Assembly (NCBI GenBank): GCA_017405595.1
Contig: JAFRAC010000015.1
Coordinates: 124,001-188,000, forward strand
DNA: 64,000 nt
Source of the DNA: Thermoguttaceae bacterium
GTDB taxonomy: Bacteria > Planctomycetota > Planctomycetia > Pirellulales > Thermoguttaceae
Direction: 5' to 3'
In this document: in pieces, positions 7,021 to 16,070 of the stretch
Layout of the letters: the number at the start of each line of letters is the position of its first letter
How positions within the stretch are numbered: position 1 is the stretch's first letter
The notes under the pieces: generated by a model
Seen by the model: only the letters and a program-made list of their open reading frames with translations
The model's database searches: none
Told to the model about the DNA's origin: nothing
Translations under genes and position numbers: made by a program

Positions 7021-7053
7021 GTGATAAAAGAAAAATTTCCATTTATAATGGAA
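7021..7053 (+). promoter_or_regulatory. Candidate pduS-pduT promoter with a palindrome over the -10
   Basis: A perfect TATAAT at 7044-7049 lies inside the inverted repeat TTCCATT-TAT-AATGGAA (7037-7053). A weak -35 (GTGATA, 7021-7026) is 17 bases upstream. A palindrome centred on the -10 is a common place for a repressor. The start codon of pduS is about 130 bases further on. Confidence 0.45.
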
Positions 7054-7184: not shown

Positions 7185-8510
7185 ATGCCGATTACTACCG
7201 CTGACTTGGCCGCCGCCGGCGTTGTCGGAGCCGGGGGCGCCGGATTTCCGACCCACGTAAAGCTTTCCGGTAAAGCTGATACCGTTGTGATCAACGCCGC
7301 CGAGTGCGAGCCGCTCCTGCACAAAGACAAAGAGATCATTCTCCATTACGGCGAATCGGTCGTCGAAGGGCTGGCGCGGGGAATGGAGCTGACCGGCGCG
7401 GCGCGCGGCGTGGTCGGCATTAAACGGAAATACACCCGTGTGATCGAGTCGCTCCGTCCGAAACTCCGCAAAGGGATGGAAATCGTTCCGCTCGACGACG
7501 CGTATCCGGCGGGAGACGAATTCATTCTCGTCTACAAGACGCTCGGCCGCGTGATCCCTCCCGGCGCAATTCCCCTGGCGGTCGGCGCGGTGGTCATGAA
7601 CGTCGAAACCGCGTATAACGTCGCCCGGGCCGGAGAATTTCCGGTAGTCGAAAAGTTCGTTTCGGTCGCCGGCGCGGTCCGCAGCCCGGTTTCGGTACGG
7701 GTGCCGATCGGCGCGCCCCTTTCCCTCTGCCTGGAAGCCGCGGGGGGAACCGATCTTGCCGACCCGGCGTTCGTTCTGGGCGGCGTCATGATGGGCACGC
7801 TCGCCGAATCGCTGAACGGCCCCGTAACCAAAACGACCGGCGGCATCATCGTTCTGCCGCGGGACCATTTCATCGTCCGGCGGAAAAGCTGGGACTGGAA
7901 CCAGACGATGCGCACCGGCCGCGCGGCGTGCGACCAGTGTTCGCACTGCACCGAACTCTGCCCGCGCTACCTGCTGGGGCACCCGATCGAGCCGCACAAG
8001 TCGATGCGGAGTCTCGGGTTCAGCCTGAACCGCGAAGCCGACGTTCCCGGTTCCGCCTACTGCTCGGAATGCAACCTCTGCAGTTACTGTTCCTGCCCCG
8101 AAGGGCTCGATCCGCGCGGGGTCAACCACCAGAACAAGATGCGTCTGATCGCCGAGAAGAAAAAGTGGGAAAATCCCCCGTTCGACCCCGGCCGGGCGGA
8201 CCGGCTGATGGCGTTCCGGCAGACCCCGACCAAGCGCCTGATGCGCCGGGTCGATCTGCTCGGGTTCGACAACCGCGGCCCGCTTCGGGAAGAGCTCGTC
8301 GACGCACGGGAAGTCACACTTCTCCTGAGACAGCATATCGGCGCTCCGCTGGCCCCGACGGTTCAGGCGGGTCAGGCGGTCCGCAAAGGGGACGTGATCG
8401 CCGTTCGTCCGGTGACCGACGGCAAACCGGCGCTCGGCGCCGACCTGCACGCCTCGATCGACGGCGTGGTCCGTTCGGTCGGCGAACAGTCGATTGTGAT
8501 CAGCAAATAA
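7185..8510 (+). CDS. pduS: PduS-like RnfC-family flavo/iron-sulfur electron-transfer protein
   Basis: 441 residues from the ATG at 7185; the frame opens earlier (TTG 7083) but the family begins near this Met. In propanediol microcompartments PduS is an FMN and [4Fe-4S] protein that passes electrons for cobalamin reduction or cofactor recycling. Seen here are the 51K/RnfC nucleotide-binding motif GVVGAGGAGFP at residues 13-23, an SLBB-like region near 165-210, cluster ligands C249, C252, C255, C259 (CDQCSHCTELC) and a second Cys group from C293, then a barrel-sandwich C-terminus. It lies 34 bases before the BMC shell gene. The shell partner makes PduS a better call than the Rnf complex subunit RnfC. 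Confidence 0.88.
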   Translation: MPITTADLAAAGVVGAGGAGFPTHVKLSGKADTVVINAAECEPLLHKDKEIILHYGESVVEGLARGMELTGAARGVVGIKRKYTRVIESLRPKLRKGMEIVPLDDAYPAGDEFILVYKTLGRVIPPGAIPLAVGAVVMNVETAYNVARAGEFPVVEKFVSVAGAVRSPVSVRVPIGAPLSLCLEAAGGTDLADPAFVLGGVMMGTLAESLNGPVTKTTGGIIVLPRDHFIVRRKSWDWNQTMRTGRAACDQCSHCTELCPRYLLGHPIEPHKSMRSLGFSLNREADVPGSAYCSECNLCSYCSCPEGLDPRGVNHQNKMRLIAEKKKWENPPFDPGRADRLMAFRQTPTKRLMRRVDLLGFDNRGPLREELVDAREVTLLLRQHIGAPLAPTVQAGQAVRKGDVIAVRPVTDGKPALGADLHASIDGVVRSVGEQSIVISK

Positions 8511-8544
8511 CAGAGAAACACACATACACACAGGAACAGAAGAG

Positions 8545-9108
8545 ATGTCGAGTAAAGCCGCAGTCGGAGCGATCGAACTTTCAAGTATCGGAATCGGGTT
8601 TCGGGTTCAGGACGCCCTCTTAAAGGCGGCGTCGGTCGACCTGCTGATCGCCAGAACCATCTGTGCCGGCAAATACCTGATCGTCTTCGCCGGAACCGTC
8701 AGCGACGTCGAGGCGGCCATGCAGACCGCCCAGTCCGAGGGGAAAGACGCGGTGATCGATTCGCTCGTGGTACCGAACATTCACCCGGCGGTCTTTCCGG
8801 CAATGACCCAGTCGGTCGTCCTTTCCCCCGAAGAGGTGGGCGCGCTGGGAATCGTCGAAACGTTCAGCGCGGTCAGCGCCATGGTCGCCGCCGACGTGGC
8901 CGCCAAAGCGGCGAACGTTACGCTGTTCCGGCTCAACCTGGCGATGGCGATGGGGGGAAAAGGGTTCCTGGCCATGACAGGCTCGGTCGCCAACGTCGAA
9001 GCCGCGGTACAGGCCGCCGCCGACGCGGTGGTGCAGGATCATGGTCTTCTGGTCAGCACAACCGTGATTCCGCGTCCTTCCAGGGAACTCTATACCGAAT
9101 ACATCTGA
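8545..9108 (+). CDS. pduT: PduT-like tandem-BMC shell protein (BMC-T)
   Basis: 187 residues made of two BMC domains (about 5-90 and 96-180). Such proteins form pseudohexameric trimers that tile microcompartment shells. Alignment from memory with Salmonella PduT is strong along the whole length (DLLIARTICAGKYLI, VVPNIHPAV, GIVETFSA, TVIPRPS). PduT holds a [4Fe-4S] cluster on the trimer axis through Cys38; the matching residue, Cys40 in TICAGK, is present, so electrons could cross the shell. It is second in a two-gene operon with pduS and is followed by a terminator. No other shell or enzyme gene of a microcompartment is in the window. Confidence 0.93.
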   Translation: MSSKAAVGAIELSSIGIGFRVQDALLKAASVDLLIARTICAGKYLIVFAGTVSDVEAAMQTAQSEGKDAVIDSLVVPNIHPAVFPAMTQSVVLSPEEVGALGIVETFSAVSAMVAADVAAKAANVTLFRLNLAMAMGGKGFLAMTGSVANVEAAVQAAADAVVQDHGLLVSTTVIPRPSRELYTEYI

Positions 9109-9151
9109 TCTGACAAGCTGAACATCTTCGGCGGCGCCGGCCGCCCAAAAC

Positions 9152-9199
9152 GGCGGGAAGCAGGACCGGCCCGGTTCCGCTTCCCGCCATCTTTTTTTC
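9152..9199 (+). terminator. Rho-independent terminator of the pduS-pduT operon
   Basis: GGCGGGAAGC (9152-9161) pairs perfectly with GCTTCCCGCC (9179-9188) and is followed by seven T at 9192-9198. It confines the operon to two genes. Confidence 0.88.
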
Positions 9200-9425
9200 A
9201 CCGCGGAACTTTTGCGGCCAGGGCCGCCGGCCCGTTCCGGACTATACCGGCAGAATCTTATTCAGTAACACAGCGGGTAATCTTGAAAGAATGAGGCAGA
9301 CCGGAAAAACGGGCAGAAAAAAGTCTGTATCACCCGACCGCGCAATCGTTATCATGGGATCATGGGTAGAGTCAAGTATCTTTCGTGCTGGTTATATCTC
9401 TATAATAATCTCAAGAAAAAAATCT
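9200..9425. other. Gene-free junction between native sequence and AT-rich island
   Basis: No convincing gene. GC content falls from the BMC side to the island side near 9360. A 63-codon plus-strand frame at 9362-9553 overlaps the antitoxin gene in antisense and has no recognisable content. I saw no integrase, tRNA end or direct repeat marking an attachment site. Confidence 0.4.
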
Positions 9426-10085
9426 CTATCGTGATGCAAATACATCATCTAACCCCAACTGATGATAAAAGCGGAAAGTCGAATCGGGAAATTTGGAGAT
9501 ATATTGGTCAATGTCTTGCTGACATATCTTTGTCTGAAAAATATAGGATTTAATCCGTTCCCTCGCCTCATCATAACCGCAGCCAAGGTACCTATCGAAG
9601 TGTTTTAATAAGTCCAGTAACCGCAAAACATTAACATTTGTCTCGGAAATAACAACTTTAGAACTACGGACAATAAACCGGCGTCCGCCAATAGGAATCT
9701 CCCGAACAACGGCCCTGATGTTGTTCGTAACGATCTCCATTATTTGCGGGACCTGGGTTGAAATCCTGATCATATTGGCAAAAGTAAAGCCTGAATAGAA
9801 TCCCTGTACCCTGCCCCGGCGGGCAACATACTTGTACGTTGCGATCGTTTCCGCACTCGGAACGGCCGTAAAGCCGTACCGGGTAACTTTGGGAAAATAA
9901 TAAATCCCCTGTTGATAACGGCAAATCTTACCGTTATCAGTTAAGGTTTTGATTTGCTGATAAAGGTTTGGACGATTCATCCCCTTGATATGAATATCGC
10001 TGAGAAAAATCGGTTCTCCGCACTTATAAGATTCCTGCAAATACTGAAGAAGCACTCTTGCCTCCTTAGAATCATTTTTTATCAT
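9426..10085 (-). CDS. AbiEi-like antitoxin / winged-helix regulator (orphan)
   Basis: 219 residues. The N-terminal third looks like the winged-helix domain of AbiEi/DUF6088 antitoxins (VLLQYLQESY ... GKICRYQQGIYYFPK). The following part carries the family pattern PSAETIA, STQVP, TNNIRAVVREI and LRLLDLLKHFD. AbiEi represses its own promoter and opposes the nucleotidyltransferase toxin AbiEii in type IV toxin-antitoxin systems. No AbiEii gene follows, because the downstream region is short and empty. GC is lower than the chromosome. Start is uncertain: ATG 10085 lacks a ribosome site, while GTG 10055 has AAGGAGG five bases upstream. Confidence 0.72.
   Translation of the reverse strand: MIKNDSKEARVLLQYLQESYKCGEPIFLSDIHIKGMNRPNLYQQIKTLTDNGKICRYQQGIYYFPKVTRYGFTAVPSAETIATYKYVARRGRVQGFYSGFTFANMIRISTQVPQIMEIVTNNIRAVVREIPIGGRRFIVRSSKVVISETNVNVLRLLDLLKHFDRYLGCGYDEARERIKSYIFQTKICQQDIDQYISKFPDSTFRFYHQLGLDDVFASR
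10061..10067 (-). promoter_or_regulatory. Strong Shine-Dalgarno pointing to a GTG start at 10055
   Basis: Minus strand AAGGAGG sits five bases before GTG (10055-10053), inside the AbiEi-like reading frame. It is the best ribosome site in the area and suggests the protein may begin at VLLQYLQES, ten residues shorter than from the ATG. Confidence 0.5.
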
Positions 10086-10105
10086 ATTTCAAGTTACTAA
10101 ATCTG

Positions 10106-10133
10106 ATTATAAACATCATAGGTTTGGCGTTAA
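10106..10133 (-). promoter_or_regulatory. Predicted promoter of the AbiEi-like gene
   Basis: Minus strand TTAACG (10133-10128), 16-base spacer, TATAAT (10111-10106). The start point would be about 10100, 14 bases before the ATG and 44 before the GTG. Confidence 0.5.
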
Positions 10134-10219
10134 TAGGGACTTAAACATAATTCTCAACCAAAAAAGAAACGATCGCTGATGTTTGGTAAATCCTGTTTAT
10201 CTTGTCTAAATCAACATAA

Positions 10220-10309
10220 ATGAGCCGGATAGAAGACGACGGGCGTTTTATCGAAATCCCGGATGACGGCGAAGAGGTTTACCACGGAGATGTCCTTGTG
10301 GGAATTTGA
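10220..10309 (+). pseudogene. Possible 29-codon gene remnant
   Basis: A short plus-strand frame (ATG 10220 to TGA 10309) reads MSRIEDDGRFIEIPDDGEEV and nine more residues. It is GC-richer than the AT-rich DNA on both sides and has a protein-like composition, but no clear ribosome site and no recognised family. It may be a leftover of a native gene broken by arrival of the island, or a true small protein. Confidence 0.25.
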
Positions 10310-10356
10310 TTCTTATATAGATATCTTGTGATAGACAACGTTTTAGAAAAATCATA

Positions 10357-13089
10357 TCATTTGAAACTATCGGTTGCCATACGGACTAAGTAATTTTCAT
10401 CTGCCTTCCCCTTGTTCTTGATTTGTCTCACAAAGGAATTGTTTGTCGACTTCAAACGATCAATACTATTAAGAATTGCAATTTTTTCGACATGGGTTCC
10501 GAAGTCCATGAGTTTTGATAAATACGAAAGAATTGGTTTTTGAATTGGTTTGTATTTTGTTAACTCAATGAGATTTAAAACAGCATTGTATCTAATTTTA
10601 TATTCTCGATGTTGTGATGTTTCAATGCAGAAGTACATAAATGTAGAAAGAATATCTTTGTTATAAATATTATCCGGGATTTCAGATAGGTAACGATAAA
10701 TTGTTATCAAGAGACACTCCGTCAGATAGGCATCTTTTCTATCTAACGATAATAATTTTTGGACACATAGGTCAGATTGTGCCTTGTCGAAAAGACTAAG
10801 AAACAAGGAATATTGAAAATCCAGTGATTTAGCGTTTTCAAGTTTTTCCAGCATAAAATGGTTGCTCGTATGATAAGAGATTGGAATACTATCAAGTAGT
10901 CGATTTTTTATTCTCGGCCACTCGCTAAAATCAGGATATTTGAAGTAGAGTTCTTGAATAACCTTGATGGCAGAGCTTTTAATACTAATAGTAACCTGAT
11001 TTGATGTTAGTGTCGTGATAGTTGTGTCCAACAAACAACGAAGAATAGAATTGGTTAATCTCTGACTGCACGAAGAAAGAATAAAGTAAATGTTGTCATA
11101 ATTATTTCCTTTAAATGGATTCGTGTTAAAGTCGTTATTTGTATTAATTAACGATTGAATTTCTTGAATTTGTGATTTGACGTATCCTGTGATATCACAT
11201 TTGTTACGGATGATGGTTGATAAACGATAGTCTGTTTTGTAGAATTCGGGTGCAGAACGCGAAAGGGCTTTTTCTAGCTGTTTAACTGATCCTTTTGTTG
11301 AACTAACGAAATTGATAATGGTGCGATAGAATTCTGAATAGAAATCGCAAGCAATTTTTCCGGAGGCAATATCAAGTAAAAGTCTGCCAACCCGAGCCTG
11401 GTCAGTTCTGTTCATTTTTGTAAAATCGGACTTGCTCAATATTTTGAAGCAAAAATAATCGCAATAGGATAATTTCCGCTCAAACACCTCGCAGACAAAG
11501 CTTACGGCGTCTGTTAAGCTGTTCCGATATGTGTTTGTAATAAAGAAGTCTGATATATATGAGCAGAGATTTATTGTTCTCTTATCGTCTGCAACCCAAT
11601 TTTTTATGAATTGTAGTAATTCTGCATAGAGCTCATGATATGTTGCATCATCCATATAATAACCAAAACGTGTTATTAAAATTAATTTTGAACGGACCTG
11701 CATGTATTGAGCAGAGTTTTCGATACTTTTTAATATCTCCTGTATTTCATATGAATTAAGGATACTGGTAGGTTCATTATACGTCCTGATGAAATTGTCG
11801 ATCTTCTTTTCATTTCCATTCAAAATTGCCAACCTAATGTAGTTAAAATACAATCGATGTTCATTGGATTGGAAGCAGAATAGTTCATATAATTCAAGGA
11901 GTCTATTCTTGATCATGATTGCCTGAAGAATTGAACCATTTGTCTCAGCAAAACAGTATGCATTTGCAAGGTGGACAATTAAGCTGTTATAATCACTGAC
12001 TCTTGTCGTTTCAGGCGAATCGGATATCGCTGTGTAGTGATGATTGATTATCTCTTCATTAAAAATTTGAATTTGTCTGTCTAGGTACGGATAGTAAACA
12101 GGTTCAGGATTATTATCGATATATTCTTGACCAGAAATCTTTGAACCAATACCGTTTTTTAATTCTTGTATTATAAGTGCAACATGCCTAATATCGATCG
12201 CTATGTCATTTTTGACCCAGTTTGGCACTGAGCGTGTCGCAAATGCCTTGTTAATTGCTTCTCGAAGGTATTTAAGGCATTTGTTGTAATGTCCTAAAAA
12301 ATAGGCTTTCTGTGCATCAAATCGTTTAGAGAGGATTGATTTTATGTTTTCCTGACACGTACTACATATTTCAGAACATATGACATCTATATTTGATTCT
12401 TTGAATTTGCTATGTGAAAGTATATAACACAAATGGTCTGCAAGAGCAGAGTCAAGCTTCGAACCATCAGGGTCCTCTTGTGAACTAGCTTTTGGAAAAA
12501 TGTTTGACGTGAGAGTTCTTAACACCGATGGAAATGCAGCCAACTGGCCTATACGTTGAATATTTGATCCGATTTTAAATACTTTGTTTACGGTCAGTTC
12601 GGGGACTTCACTCCGTTTGTTTTGAAGAGGGGATTCTTTTTTGCAGTATATTTTGATAATGTCCTGGATTACACTGTCGTAGACCTCTAATGCAATGTCT
12701 GCAAATTCCGAGACAACAGTATACTTTTGAGCACCAACAGTTTCAACTTCTTTTTGCATTGCGGTTGGAGTCTTTTTTCTTTCATTGCAAAAAATGTACA
12801 GAATTCTTAAATTGTTTTTTTGAGCGCGTCGGACCTCCTTTTGAACCGCAGTTGAAATGTCATCTTTGTTGTCTACGATAACAACGCAAAGATCTGAACG
12901 GTCTATTTCGCTTAGGAATGCGCTTTCGTTATTATCGCTACTCGCGGGGGTTTCCTCGTATACGTAAACTTCGGCAAGACCAGTAGCTTCTAATAGCTTT
13001 TTGATAGCTCTTCTTGCAATTTTATATTTTCCATTACAGAGCGAACTGATAAAAACTCGCAATTTAGACCCTACACCTGAATTGTTCAT
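10357..13089 (-). CDS. DUF4062-like N-terminal domain with long helical C-terminus, in defence island
   Basis: 910 residues, about 36% GC, much lower than the chromosome. Residues ~8-150 resemble DUF4062, a domain related to the TIR fold: KLRVFISSL at the start, then SDLCVVIVDN, AVQKEVRRAQKNN and ILYIFCNE. The remaining ~750 residues are helix-rich, with HEAT/TPR-like character towards the end (VLNLIELTKYKPIQKPILSY), but no named family was recognised. No NTPase P-loop and no membrane segment are seen. GAGG five bases before the ATG at 13089 supports the start. It follows hsdS on the same strand after 129 bases. By context I infer a defence sensor or effector; this is not shown by sequence. 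Confidence 0.6.
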   Translation of the reverse strand: MNNSGVGSKLRVFISSLCNGKYKIARRAIKKLLEATGLAEVYVYEETPASSDNNESAFLSEIDRSDLCVVIVDNKDDISTAVQKEVRRAQKNNLRILYIFCNERKKTPTAMQKEVETVGAQKYTVVSEFADIALEVYDSVIQDIIKIYCKKESPLQNKRSEVPELTVNKVFKIGSNIQRIGQLAAFPSVLRTLTSNIFPKASSQEDPDGSKLDSALADHLCYILSHSKFKESNIDVICSEICSTCQENIKSILSKRFDAQKAYFLGHYNKCLKYLREAINKAFATRSVPNWVKNDIAIDIRHVALIIQELKNGIGSKISGQEYIDNNPEPVYYPYLDRQIQIFNEEIINHHYTAISDSPETTRVSDYNSLIVHLANAYCFAETNGSILQAIMIKNRLLELYELFCFQSNEHRLYFNYIRLAILNGNEKKIDNFIRTYNEPTSILNSYEIQEILKSIENSAQYMQVRSKLILITRFGYYMDDATYHELYAELLQFIKNWVADDKRTINLCSYISDFFITNTYRNSLTDAVSFVCEVFERKLSYCDYFCFKILSKSDFTKMNRTDQARVGRLLLDIASGKIACDFYSEFYRTIINFVSSTKGSVKQLEKALSRSAPEFYKTDYRLSTIIRNKCDITGYVKSQIQEIQSLINTNNDFNTNPFKGNNYDNIYFILSSCSQRLTNSILRCLLDTTITTLTSNQVTISIKSSAIKVIQELYFKYPDFSEWPRIKNRLLDSIPISYHTSNHFMLEKLENAKSLDFQYSLFLSLFDKAQSDLCVQKLLSLDRKDAYLTECLLITIYRYLSEIPDNIYNKDILSTFMYFCIETSQHREYKIRYNAVLNLIELTKYKPIQKPILSYLSKLMDFGTHVEKIAILNSIDRLKSTNNSFVRQIKNKGKADENYLVRMATDSFK

Positions 13090-13218
13090 TACAACCTCAT
13101 TTCGCGATATTGTTTTAACGGTTAATGTCCTACAGTTATATCCTACATAAATCTGTAATATGACATTATTAATATTTGAAACTGAAAATCAGGTGTTAAT
13201 GTAAACATAAAAACGTTG

Positions 13219-14595
13219 TCAGTTGTTTGCTTGTTTTTGCCCATACCGCAGCTTACTGCAGTATGGGAATATCTCGTTAATTTTTGCAACAATGCGTTTT
13301 TGTTCGGCTAGGGGTGGAAGGGGGAGAACCATCTTTGATAAAGTCTTTCCATTGCAGTTAGGTTGCGCTGTTGCTATTGTTCCACTTCTGATTTGTCTCC
13401 AATAGAGAAAACTATCCATAAAGAGTTTGAAATATTCAGCATAAAGAAGTCTGCTATACCGTGTCCGAATCAAATATCCCGCATATACGGCTTCTTCCGG
13501 AACACTCTTAACCAGATAGGATTTTCCAACTGTCCCTCCTGTTCTGGCAAAAAGAATATCATTTTTTTGTAGAATGTACAGAGGAATTTCATCTTCTTTA
13601 ATATTACAGTAAGGAACGGTCTCCCATAAGACTTCACCATCTTGAATGTCACTTATCCGAACAATCTTAATACGGCCAATTTCTTGCGCGGGTGCGTTGT
13701 AGCCGTATTGAATAGATTCGGATAAATCTCCCCAACGAACCCATTTCCAGCTTTCCGGAATCTCAAACGGAATTTCATCCTCGCTGATTTCCGGGAGGGG
13801 TTTTTCCTTCTTGATCTTTCCCGCCTTGATCAGCTTCTGCTTTTCCGCCTGGATCTTTTTATACAGCTCTTCGGCGGTCCCTTCTTCTGGCCGTTGTTCG
13901 ACCAGTTTTCCCTGGATCGCGAGCTGAAGAACCGATTTCCGCATATCGTCGGGGAACCGCTTATTAAGCTCTTCAAGCCGGTCCCAGGCTTCCCCGTATC
14001 GGTCGGCCAGCGGAAGAAGTTCCTCGATTTTCGCGACAATCCGTTTTTGTTCGGCTAGAGGTGGGAGGGGAATAGGTTTATTTTTGATAAACTTATAATG
14101 CCGTGAATAACCGCCAATTCGATTCAAATTTCTAGTGTAATACTTCAATACATAAAAGAAAAATCTCGGTAATAATGTATTCTCTATGGGGTGAAATATT
14201 TTGACTCCATCTGCTCCTACAATGAAATTAAAATCGATGTATTTGACCTCGGTAGTATGATCCCCAAAGACGATAACCGGGGTTTTATGTTGAAACAGTT
14301 TTTCTTTTTTATCAGAGAAACCAATTATGTATTCTTTTGACTGGCTAATTACGGCATATTTTCCTTTTTTAAGAACCTCTGATTCTAGAATTTGAAATGA
14401 CTTTGTAGGTACTTGTTCAGTAACTGTTTCAATATGGGCAAGGCACCAGTTTTCAGGGACGTCAAATTCAAACTCTTCTGTTCCTTTCTGTTTGATACCG
14501 GAAAGGTTAATCTTTCCTTCTTCCGGCCGCTGTTCGACCAGTTTTCCCTGAATCGCGAGCTGAAGAATGCTGTTTTTCAGTTCCTGGGGGGTCAT
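13219..14595 (-). CDS. hsdS: Type I restriction-modification specificity subunit HsdS
   Basis: 458 residues. HsdS carries two target recognition domains, each reading half of a bipartite site, joined by conserved helices that bind HsdM. TRD1 is about residues 35-165 and TRD2 about 270-430. Each is followed by the same conserved block, PLPPLAEQKRIVAKI. The N-terminus and the central spacer share LQLAIQGKLVEQRPEEG. Both TRD coding segments are AT-rich while the conserved parts are GC-richer, which suggests exchange of TRDs. The ATG at 14595 shares one base with the hsdM TGA (TGATG), so translation is coupled; the frame also opens with GTG at 14598. Confidence 0.93.
   Translation of the reverse strand: MTPQELKNSILQLAIQGKLVEQRPEEGKINLSGIKQKGTEEFEFDVPENWCLAHIETVTEQVPTKSFQILESEVLKKGKYAVISQSKEYIIGFSDKKEKLFQHKTPVIVFGDHTTEVKYIDFNFIVGADGVKIFHPIENTLLPRFFFYVLKYYTRNLNRIGGYSRHYKFIKNKPIPLPPLAEQKRIVAKIEELLPLADRYGEAWDRLEELNKRFPDDMRKSVLQLAIQGKLVEQRPEEGTAEELYKKIQAEKQKLIKAGKIKKEKPLPEISEDEIPFEIPESWKWVRWGDLSESIQYGYNAPAQEIGRIKIVRISDIQDGEVLWETVPYCNIKEDEIPLYILQKNDILFARTGGTVGKSYLVKSVPEEAVYAGYLIRTRYSRLLYAEYFKLFMDSFLYWRQIRSGTIATAQPNCNGKTLSKMVLPLPPLAEQKRIVAKINEIFPYCSKLRYGQKQANN
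13280..13325. repeat. hsdS conserved-block repeat, copy 1 (distal)
   Basis: Near-identical to 14027-14072. It encodes the second PLPPLAEQKRIVAKI block. Direct repeats of this kind around TRDs are known sites of recombination in hsdS genes. Confidence 0.7.
13881..13931. repeat. hsdS spacer repeat, copy 1
   Basis: 51 bases with three differences from 14517-14567. It encodes LQLAIQGKLVEQRPEE in the central spacer. Confidence 0.75.
14027..14072. repeat. hsdS conserved-block repeat, copy 2 (central)
   Basis: Partner of 13280-13325. It encodes the first PLPPLAEQKRIVAKI block after TRD1. Confidence 0.7.
14517..14567. repeat. hsdS N-terminal repeat, copy 2
   Basis: Partner of 13881-13931. Together the four repeats bracket both TRDs, so a TRD could be swapped or lost by homologous exchange. 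Confidence 0.75.
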
Positions 14596-16070
14596 CACTC
14601 CGCCCCTCCCAGTTTTTCGGTGATCTCCGCAAGTACCCGGTCAATTTCGGCGTTCAGCGAAGCCCGCTCTTCCTGATAGCGCTGAATCAGGTCGAGCGGA
14701 GCGAGTATCTCCTCTTCCTCGTGCGGGAACCCGCACAGGTCGAGATTGTAGCCGTGCTCTTCGGCAAGTTCCAGCGCGGTGTATTTTCTCGCCTTGTCGA
14801 ATCCGTCTTCGGTAATCGCCTTCCTTTTGTTCCACCATTTGACGACCGGATCGAAATGTTCCGGTTTCATCGGTTTCGTCTTGCTGAAATGCTTGTACCC
14901 TTCCGGCATATCGAGCCGGTAGAACCAGGTGCTTTTCGTCGGCCCGGTCCGGTCGAAGAAGAGAATGTTCGTCGTGATGCTTGTGTAGGGGGAGAAAACG
15001 CTTCCCGGCATACGGACAACCGTGTGCAGATTGAATTCCGAAAGGAGCTTCCTCTTAATGTTGATCTTCGCGTTGTCGGTGCCGAACAGGAACCCGTCGG
15101 GCAGAATGACCGCCGCGTGTCCGTTCTTCTTGAGCCGGTACATGATGACCGACATGAACAGGTCGGCGGTCTCGCTGCTTGCCAGGTCGGCGGGAAAATG
15201 ATTCTTGACTTCCGCCTTTTCGCTGCCGCCGTACGGGGGATTCATCAGAACCACGTCGAACTGGTCTTTGGCGGTATAGTCGAGCAGGTCGCGGAGCAGG
15301 CTGTTGTCGAGATAGATCTGCGGAACGTCCAGGTCGTGCAGAAGCATGTTCGTGACGCAAAGGATGTACGGCAGCTGTTTCTTCTCGATCCCGTAGATCG
15401 ACCGTTCGAATGCTTTCCGGTCTTTGGTGGTCTTGACTTCCTTTTCAAGTTCCTTGAGCCAGCTTGTGAGAAATCCGCCGGTACCGCAGGCGAAGTCGGC
15501 GCACGTTTCCCCGATCTGCGGCTTGATCATTTTCGCCATGAACTCGGTCACGGCGCGCGGCGTATAAAACTCGCCGGCGGAACCGGCACTCTGCAGTTCG
15601 CGCAGGAACGTTTCGTAGATTTCGCCGAACGCGTGGATCTCCCCGTAATCGCCCAGGTCAAGCTCGTCGATTGCGTTGATCACCTGACGCAGAAGAACAC
15701 CGTCTTTCATGTAGTTGTTGGCGTCGGCGAACGTCGTCTGCACAACCGCCTTTTTGACCGGCGTTGCGGCGTCGACGGGGAGTGTTTTCAGGGTCGGGAA
15801 AAGTTTGTTGTTCACGAAATTGAGAAGTTTCTCACCCGTGAGCGCTTTCCCCGATTTATCGTCCGCCGCCCAGTTCGACCAGCGGCACTCTTCCGGAATG
15901 ATCGAACTGAAACTGCTATCGTCGAATTCCCATTCCTGCTCTTTGGCGTCGTAGACTTTCAGGAAAAGCATCCAGGCGATCTGTTCGATCCGCTGGGCGT
16001 CGCCGTTAATGCCGGCGTCGTTCCGCATAATGTCCCGAAGCCGTTTGATAAATCCGGAAAGGTTTGCCAT
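14595..16070 (-). CDS. hsdM: Type I restriction-modification methyltransferase HsdM
   Basis: 491 residues, the usual size for the type IB (EcoAI/EcoEI-like) family. HsdM uses S-adenosylmethionine to make N6-methyladenine in the recognition site, protecting host DNA. Visible are the N-terminal helical HsdM_N domain (FIKRLRDIMRNDAGINGDAQ), motif I DFACGTGGFLTSW near residue 200 and the catalytic NPPYGG near 270. AAGGA precedes the ATG by seven bases. It begins ten bases after the hsdR stop and overlaps hsdS by one base, so R-M-S form one transcription unit. Confidence 0.96.
   Translation of the reverse strand: MANLSGFIKRLRDIMRNDAGINGDAQRIEQIAWMLFLKVYDAKEQEWEFDDSSFSSIIPEECRWSNWAADDKSGKALTGEKLLNFVNNKLFPTLKTLPVDAATPVKKAVVQTTFADANNYMKDGVLLRQVINAIDELDLGDYGEIHAFGEIYETFLRELQSAGSAGEFYTPRAVTEFMAKMIKPQIGETCADFACGTGGFLTSWLKELEKEVKTTKDRKAFERSIYGIEKKQLPYILCVTNMLLHDLDVPQIYLDNSLLRDLLDYTAKDQFDVVLMNPPYGGSEKAEVKNHFPADLASSETADLFMSVIMYRLKKNGHAAVILPDGFLFGTDNAKINIKRKLLSEFNLHTVVRMPGSVFSPYTSITTNILFFDRTGPTKSTWFYRLDMPEGYKHFSKTKPMKPEHFDPVVKWWNKRKAITEDGFDKARKYTALELAEEHGYNLDLCGFPHEEEEILAPLDLIQRYQEERASLNAEIDRVLAEITEKLGGAE

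Follow-up and report, generated by a model that had tools for sequence, protein, structure and literature searches.

The pduS–pduT gene pair described here almost certainly serves a bacterial microcompartment (BMC) of the PVM type that is encoded elsewhere in the same genome. In our view it is probably a redox port for this organelle, encoded as a satellite. PduS would oxidise NADH in the lumen and PduT would export the electrons, replacing an internal dehydrogenase.

The PduS–PduT gene pair

The window, that is, the whole stretch of 64,000 nucleotides that was analysed, comes from a 2.67-Mb Thermoguttaceae MAG (Planctomycetota; 84.7% complete). The features of the locus are as follows.

7021..7049, + strand: sigma-70-like promoter candidate ahead of pduS, GTGATA-17-TATAAT, by consensus match only
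7185..8510, + strand: pduS-like gene, 441 aa; FMN/NADH domain, SLBB, two [4Fe-4S] motifs and a C-terminal RnfC_N barrel
8545..9108, + strand: gene for a pduT-like BMC-T shell protein, 187 aa; two PF00936 domains
8662..8664, + strand: codon of Cys40, the predicted pore [4Fe-4S] ligand, aligned to the PduT cluster cysteine
9152..9198, + strand: intrinsic terminator, a hairpin (9152–9188) followed by a T run, from folding energy
9426–10085: AbiEi-like gene, in the low-GC stretch after pduT
10357–13089: gene for a DUF4062/TIR-like protein, 910 aa, in the same stretch
13219–16070: type I restriction-modification genes HsdS/HsdM, in the same stretch

A domain search on the first reading frame returned Complex1_51K, SLBB, Fer4_17 and RnfC_N, in the order that defines the four-domain architecture of PduS (PMC6325248). 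The signature motifs of PduS are also present: the glycine motif of the FMN/NADH domain (GAGGAGFPTHVK) and two tetracysteine motifs, at residues 249 and 293. The sequence NAAECEP is found as well. The nearest named matches come from rumen or gut planctomycete assemblies, RUG695 (93%) and 'Thermoguttaceae bacterium RGIG9609' from yak duodenum (93%).

The second protein is a tandem PF00936 fusion whose best solved relatives are structures of PduT (3pac, 3n79; E about 1e-40). Cys40 aligns with the cluster cysteine of 3pac, within the motif TIC(P/A)GK. The conserved pore cysteine is thus present, and the [4Fe-4S] cluster on it is predicted from this alignment. The protein scores 124.7 bits against the NCBIfam PduT equivalog model TIGR02526, below the curated cut-off of 250.3, and the accurate name is therefore 'PduT-like'; we shorten it to PduT below. 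An earlier note on this DNA had read the locus as a two-gene PduS–PduT module with a retained Cys40. The domains, the solved relatives and the cysteine alignment all agree with that reading.

The two genes are 34 bp apart. The same note had given them their own promoter and a strong terminator, and both have counterparts in our analysis. The promoter candidate matches the consensus at 10 of 12 positions, in a region that has three such sites against 0.6 expected. The terminator hairpin is 37 nt long, and the 76-nt stretch 9125–9200 folds with an MFE of −44.5 kcal/mol (z −4.9). The flanking genes are unrelated to the pair, as had been claimed. To the left lie a trypsin-like/PDZ (HtrA-type) protease and a ROK protein, and to the right the AbiEi-like and type I restriction-modification genes. 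No conserved neighbours of pduST are evident across genera, so gene context yields no further clue to function. A low-GC stretch starts right after pduT (window 9200–16070; 34–43% over about 5 kb, compared to about 60% around it) and looks like an inserted defence island.

A PVM compartment on another contig

Besides PduT, the only BMC-T, the genome has exactly two PF00936 genes (BMC-H) and three PF03319 genes (BMC-P). All five are in one operon on contig C14, in the order PduL, BMC-H, BMC-H, acetate kinase (AckA), BMC-P, aldehyde dehydrogenase (AldDH), BMC-P, a protein with no Pfam match, BMC-P and class II aldolase. The class II aldolase (PF00596), AldDH, PTAC, AckA, BMC-H pair and BMC-P triplet that mark a PVM locus are all there. 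According to PMC4207490 and PMC8217296, experiments in planctomycetes have tied this compartment type to L-fucose and L-rhamnose. The C14 locus encodes neither a BMC-T nor PduS, nor any alcohol or lactate dehydrogenase. The lactate/malate dehydrogenase expected as the core NAD+ recycler is absent from it. The best match to this dehydrogenase in the genome is 33% identical and lies on a contig other than C14.

The pair's own contig has no other BMC gene. It continues for 131 kb leftward of the pair, so the window edge cuts off no operon. By the definition of Axen et al., the pair is a satellite of the C14 PVM locus; since pduS is a BMC-related gene that does not encode a shell protein, the strict term is satellite-like. 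A search for a motif shared by the regions upstream of pduS and of the PVM operon gave nothing above shuffled sequences.

The earlier note had left two readings: a detachable electron port whose shell and enzymes are elsewhere, or a pair with a role of its own and without a microcompartment. The first is borne out, since a complete PVM locus exists on C14 and the presence/absence and linkage data below tie the pair to it. A role free of any compartment is rejected by the same locus, and 'without a microcompartment' has to be withdrawn. A cut-off operon or a misassembly is rejected as well: no BMC operon stands beside the pair, which is internal to a 242-kb contig, and its arrangement is repeated in a closed genome.

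Association within Thermoguttaceae

We examined a family sample of 101 Thermoguttaceae genomes from about 40 genera. PduS or PduT was found in 88 of them, both in 75, and BMC-P in 94. Where the PVM shell is missing, pduST is nearly always missing too. BMC-P, PduT and PduS are jointly absent from all four g176 genomes and from G313, and pduST without BMC-P is seen in only two assemblies, which are 73 and 80% complete. pduS and pduT are direct neighbours in 44 genomes; in one genome 4 kb separate them on a single contig, and another 30 genomes have them on different contigs. They co-occur even where they are not neighbours. By gene content, the association of pduST with the PVM compartment is well supported.

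In the closed genome of Thermogutta terrifontis (G011), pduST (3.35 Mb) lies 2.0 Mb away from the PVM operon (1.31 Mb). In G355, the PVM operon itself includes pduT, which follows the aldolase gene at a distance of 16 bp. In G347 and G300, pduT or pduST precedes the PVM operon by about 4 kb on the same strand.

These data bear on whether the pair is a relic of a different compartment, such as EUT, PDU or GRM, that was lost or not assembled. The genome holds no other BMC-T or PduS and the MAG is 84.7% complete, which would fit. However, the PVM shell genes are the only shell genes present, the pair is under constraint across the roughly 40 genera, and one relative carries PduT within the PVM operon itself. 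We regard this reading as largely refuted and its probability as slight.

Dehydrogenase and PduS/PduT across Planctomycetia

The PVM dehydrogenase consists of the domains Ldh_1_N and Ldh_1_C. It directly follows the aldolase gene in 17 of 20 sampled PVM loci of other Planctomycetia. According to Axen et al. (PMC4207490), this lactate/malate dehydrogenase was predicted to be the NAD+-regenerating core of the PVM compartment, as the sole other gene capable of that step. What the earlier note did not see is that the pair appears to stand in for it.

The class sample comprised 297 genomes: 223 BMC-positive genomes outside the family, 65 BMC-negative genomes and nine Thermoguttaceae. The dehydrogenase orthologue is present in 210/223, 4/65 and 0/9 of these, respectively. 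PduS and PduT occur in the same ten of the 297 genomes, namely all nine Thermoguttaceae and G115. Judged from these gene counts, the distribution of pduST is near-complementary to that of the dehydrogenase, with the reservation that the genome counts are not independent and that most of the contrast goes back to a single event at the root of the family.

The complementarity has exceptions in both directions. Within the family sample, the orthologue is found in three of the 101 genomes, all of genus g184 (70–71% identity). It adjoins the aldolase gene in G359, and two of the three genomes also carry PduS. As g184 and G115 have both, the dehydrogenase and pduST are not mutually exclusive. Thirteen BMC-positive genomes outside the family have neither, which means that other solutions exist.

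Family f76, which lies outside the class, is represented by two genomes whose PVM operon has no dehydrogenase gene next to it, as seen in the locus neighbourhood. Both also carry a distant pduS–pduT pair with the cysteine present. On this gene content, f76 would be an independent second case of a PVM locus that lacks the dehydrogenase and has a satellite pduST. A Phycisphaerae assembly (L168) has an adjacent pduS–pduT pair, too.

The pduST of G115, a member of another family, nests among the Thermoguttaceae in the PduT tree. Its GC content is 68%, the same as that of the genome's own PVM locus, which has the dehydrogenase (the loci concerned are L069, G115:C242, and L158, G115:C124). Either horizontal transfer or contamination of the assembly would account for its origin.

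The pore cysteine follows PduS

Residue 40 is cysteine in 75 of the 78 readable PduT sequences of the family sample; the loss of Cys40 throughout the relatives, which would have spoken against the earlier note, is thus not seen. In the remaining three (G337, G370 and G374) it is serine. These genomes all lack PduS and form one clade. The genomes G304, G349 and G387 (82–88% complete) have no PduS and keep the cysteine.

Outside the family, 11 PduT-like proteins have the cysteine and each is adjoined by PduS. Another 13 have Ser, Thr, His or Gln instead, with no PduS in the stretch fetched around them (mostly about 20 kb; 2–3.5 kb for three). One copy with the cysteine and no PduS nearby is an exception to this pattern. 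That the pore cysteine tracks the presence of PduS supports a path for electrons from PduS to the cluster as the selected function.

The same sequences weigh on the idea that the pair only tunes the permeability of the shell, with a satellite BMC-T altering pore traffic and PduS merely carried along. Satellite shell genes have been suggested to change permeability (PMC8217296), and the three C40S genomes do retain PduT without PduS. But within the family Cys40 is lost solely where PduS is lost, and both CxxCxxC cluster motifs of PduS are retained in 45 of 45 sequences. We give this idea little credence.

Taken with the distribution of the dehydrogenase, we lean, without strong conviction, towards a wider reading: pduST may be a modular cassette for electron export that can be detached and put in the place of a metabolosome's dehydrogenase core. 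One planctomycete family and a second lineage of the phylum would have made this swap, and the pore cysteine would decay once PduS is lost.

Several other planctomycete families (L201–L205, L207–L210, L191–L194) have a different BMC locus with its own BMC-T, which lacks the pore cysteine. Genomes of family f50 (G661, G722, G639 and G701) carry a separate, cysteine-bearing pduS–pduT pair elsewhere. A third PduT-like copy in G661 (L206, G661:C67) keeps the cysteine, with PduS absent within about 10 kb.

Proposed mechanism and direction of electron flow

The probable redox port outlined above would work in the following manner. PduT would insert into the PVM shell, for which the main locus encodes no BMC-T of its own, as a trimeric tile, and would hold a [4Fe-4S] cluster at the three-fold pore via Cys40. 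PduS would dock on the lumenal face of PduT and oxidise the NADH that the CoA-acylating aldehyde dehydrogenase in the lumen forms as it turns lactaldehyde into lactyl-CoA. Electrons would pass from the FMN of PduS through its two [4Fe-4S] clusters to PduT and on to a cytosolic acceptor. NAD+ would then be regenerated inside the shell, in place of the reaction of the lactate/malate dehydrogenase of other Planctomycetia. If electrons leave by PduS/PduT, lactaldehyde is not needed as an internal electron sink; it could all be oxidised to lactate with ATP, rather than partly reduced. The location in the shell, the outward direction and a cytosolic acceptor are what we infer from the parts and their distribution.

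Biochemical data exist for the Citrobacter proteins. Citrobacter PduS, which contains FMN along with two [4Fe-4S] clusters, accepts electrons from NADH and binds to PduT (PMC2982820). NADH-dependent, PduT-binding reductase activity is known for this PduS only and is predicted here. The measured potential of Citrobacter PduT, +99 mV (PMC2982820), is too high and argues against direct reduction of ferredoxin or protons.

The electrons might run the other way, entering the PVM lumen via PduT and keeping a redox-sensitive core component reduced. The parts and the comparative data fit both directions, and inward flow that serves to activate enzymes has been proposed for GRM compartments (PMC6325248). 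However, the PVM locus has no glycyl radical enzyme or other enzyme in need of reductant. The gene missing in the family is that of an NADH-consuming dehydrogenase, which points to NADH oxidation, and it is NADH that reduces the flavin and FeS centres of PduS in vitro (PMC2982820). We hold inward flow to be unlikely.

PduS could also be a cobalamin (corrin) reductase for B12-dependent metabolism, as in Pdu. The family resemblance suggests this, and Citrobacter PduS does reduce cobalamin (PMC2982820). But there are no B12-dependent enzymes in the PVM locus and none are annotated beside the pair, and PduS occurs together with the PVM shell and PduT, in a distribution complementary to that of the dehydrogenase. 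Moreover, PduS homologues occur in B12-free GRM loci (PMC6325248), which shows that the cobalamin role is not obligatory. We hold a corrin reductase to be very unlikely here.

Comparison with known systems

The locus shares with the Pdu system of Citrobacter and Salmonella both proteins, the domain order, the FMN/FeS motifs and the pore cysteine (PMC2982820). There, pduS and pduT sit within a large pdu operon beside B12 enzymes, whereas the pair here stands apart, as a satellite of two genes that belongs to an aldolase-type compartment, and its PduT is well under the equivalog cut-off. The C14 locus resembles the PVM of Planctomycetes/Verrucomicrobia (Planctopirus limnophila type) in PduL, the two BMC-H, AckA, the three BMC-P, AldDH and the class II aldolase. 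It differs in lacking the lactate/malate dehydrogenase and in having a distant BMC-T and PduS.

GRM1b, GRM3, GRM5 and the isethionate compartment of Bilophila are likewise B12-free and have PduS/PduT (PMC6325248, PMC8667426). The Bilophila cluster also has no alcohol dehydrogenase, and its authors speculated on electron export for the recycling of NAD+ (PMC8667426). In these systems, PduS/PduT are encoded within the main locus and work for glycyl radical enzymes, of which there are none here. Unlike them, the Thermoguttaceae PVM has near relatives that differ in the replaced gene, which is a natural comparison. Satellite BMC loci are known, with a distant shell gene and its partner, from ccmK3/K4 of the beta-carboxysome and from EUT modules of the HO and SPU types (PMC4207490, PMC8217296).

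The proposal of PduS/PduT as an electron conduit is old. Our literature searches, which covered main texts, found no description of a redox satellite (PduS plus an FeS BMC-T) for PVM. Such a satellite, and the comparative evidence that it would replace the core dehydrogenase, thus appear to be new. Electron export from compartments by PduS/PduT 'remains an open question' (PMC6325248). In the present case, some close relatives operate this organelle with the dehydrogenase and others with PduS/PduT, one genus has both and one clade has a broken version, which makes the question directly testable. Thermogutta terrifontis, culturable and fermentative, and its genetically tractable relative Planctopirus limnophila would be suitable test organisms. 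As a component of only two genes, pduST could also serve to connect engineered compartments electrically with the cytosol.

T. terrifontis in culture ferments glucose to hydrogen, lactate and acetate (PMC5673643). No phosphotransacetylase was found in it, and acetate formation was assigned to an acetate kinase, THTE_1319, and a CoA-acylating AldDH, THTE_1321 (PMC5673643). Its PVM operon contains PduL (PF06130), a phosphotransacylase (L070:7755–8429). By locus-tag spacing, THTE_1319 and THTE_1321 look like the acetate kinase and AldDH of that operon.
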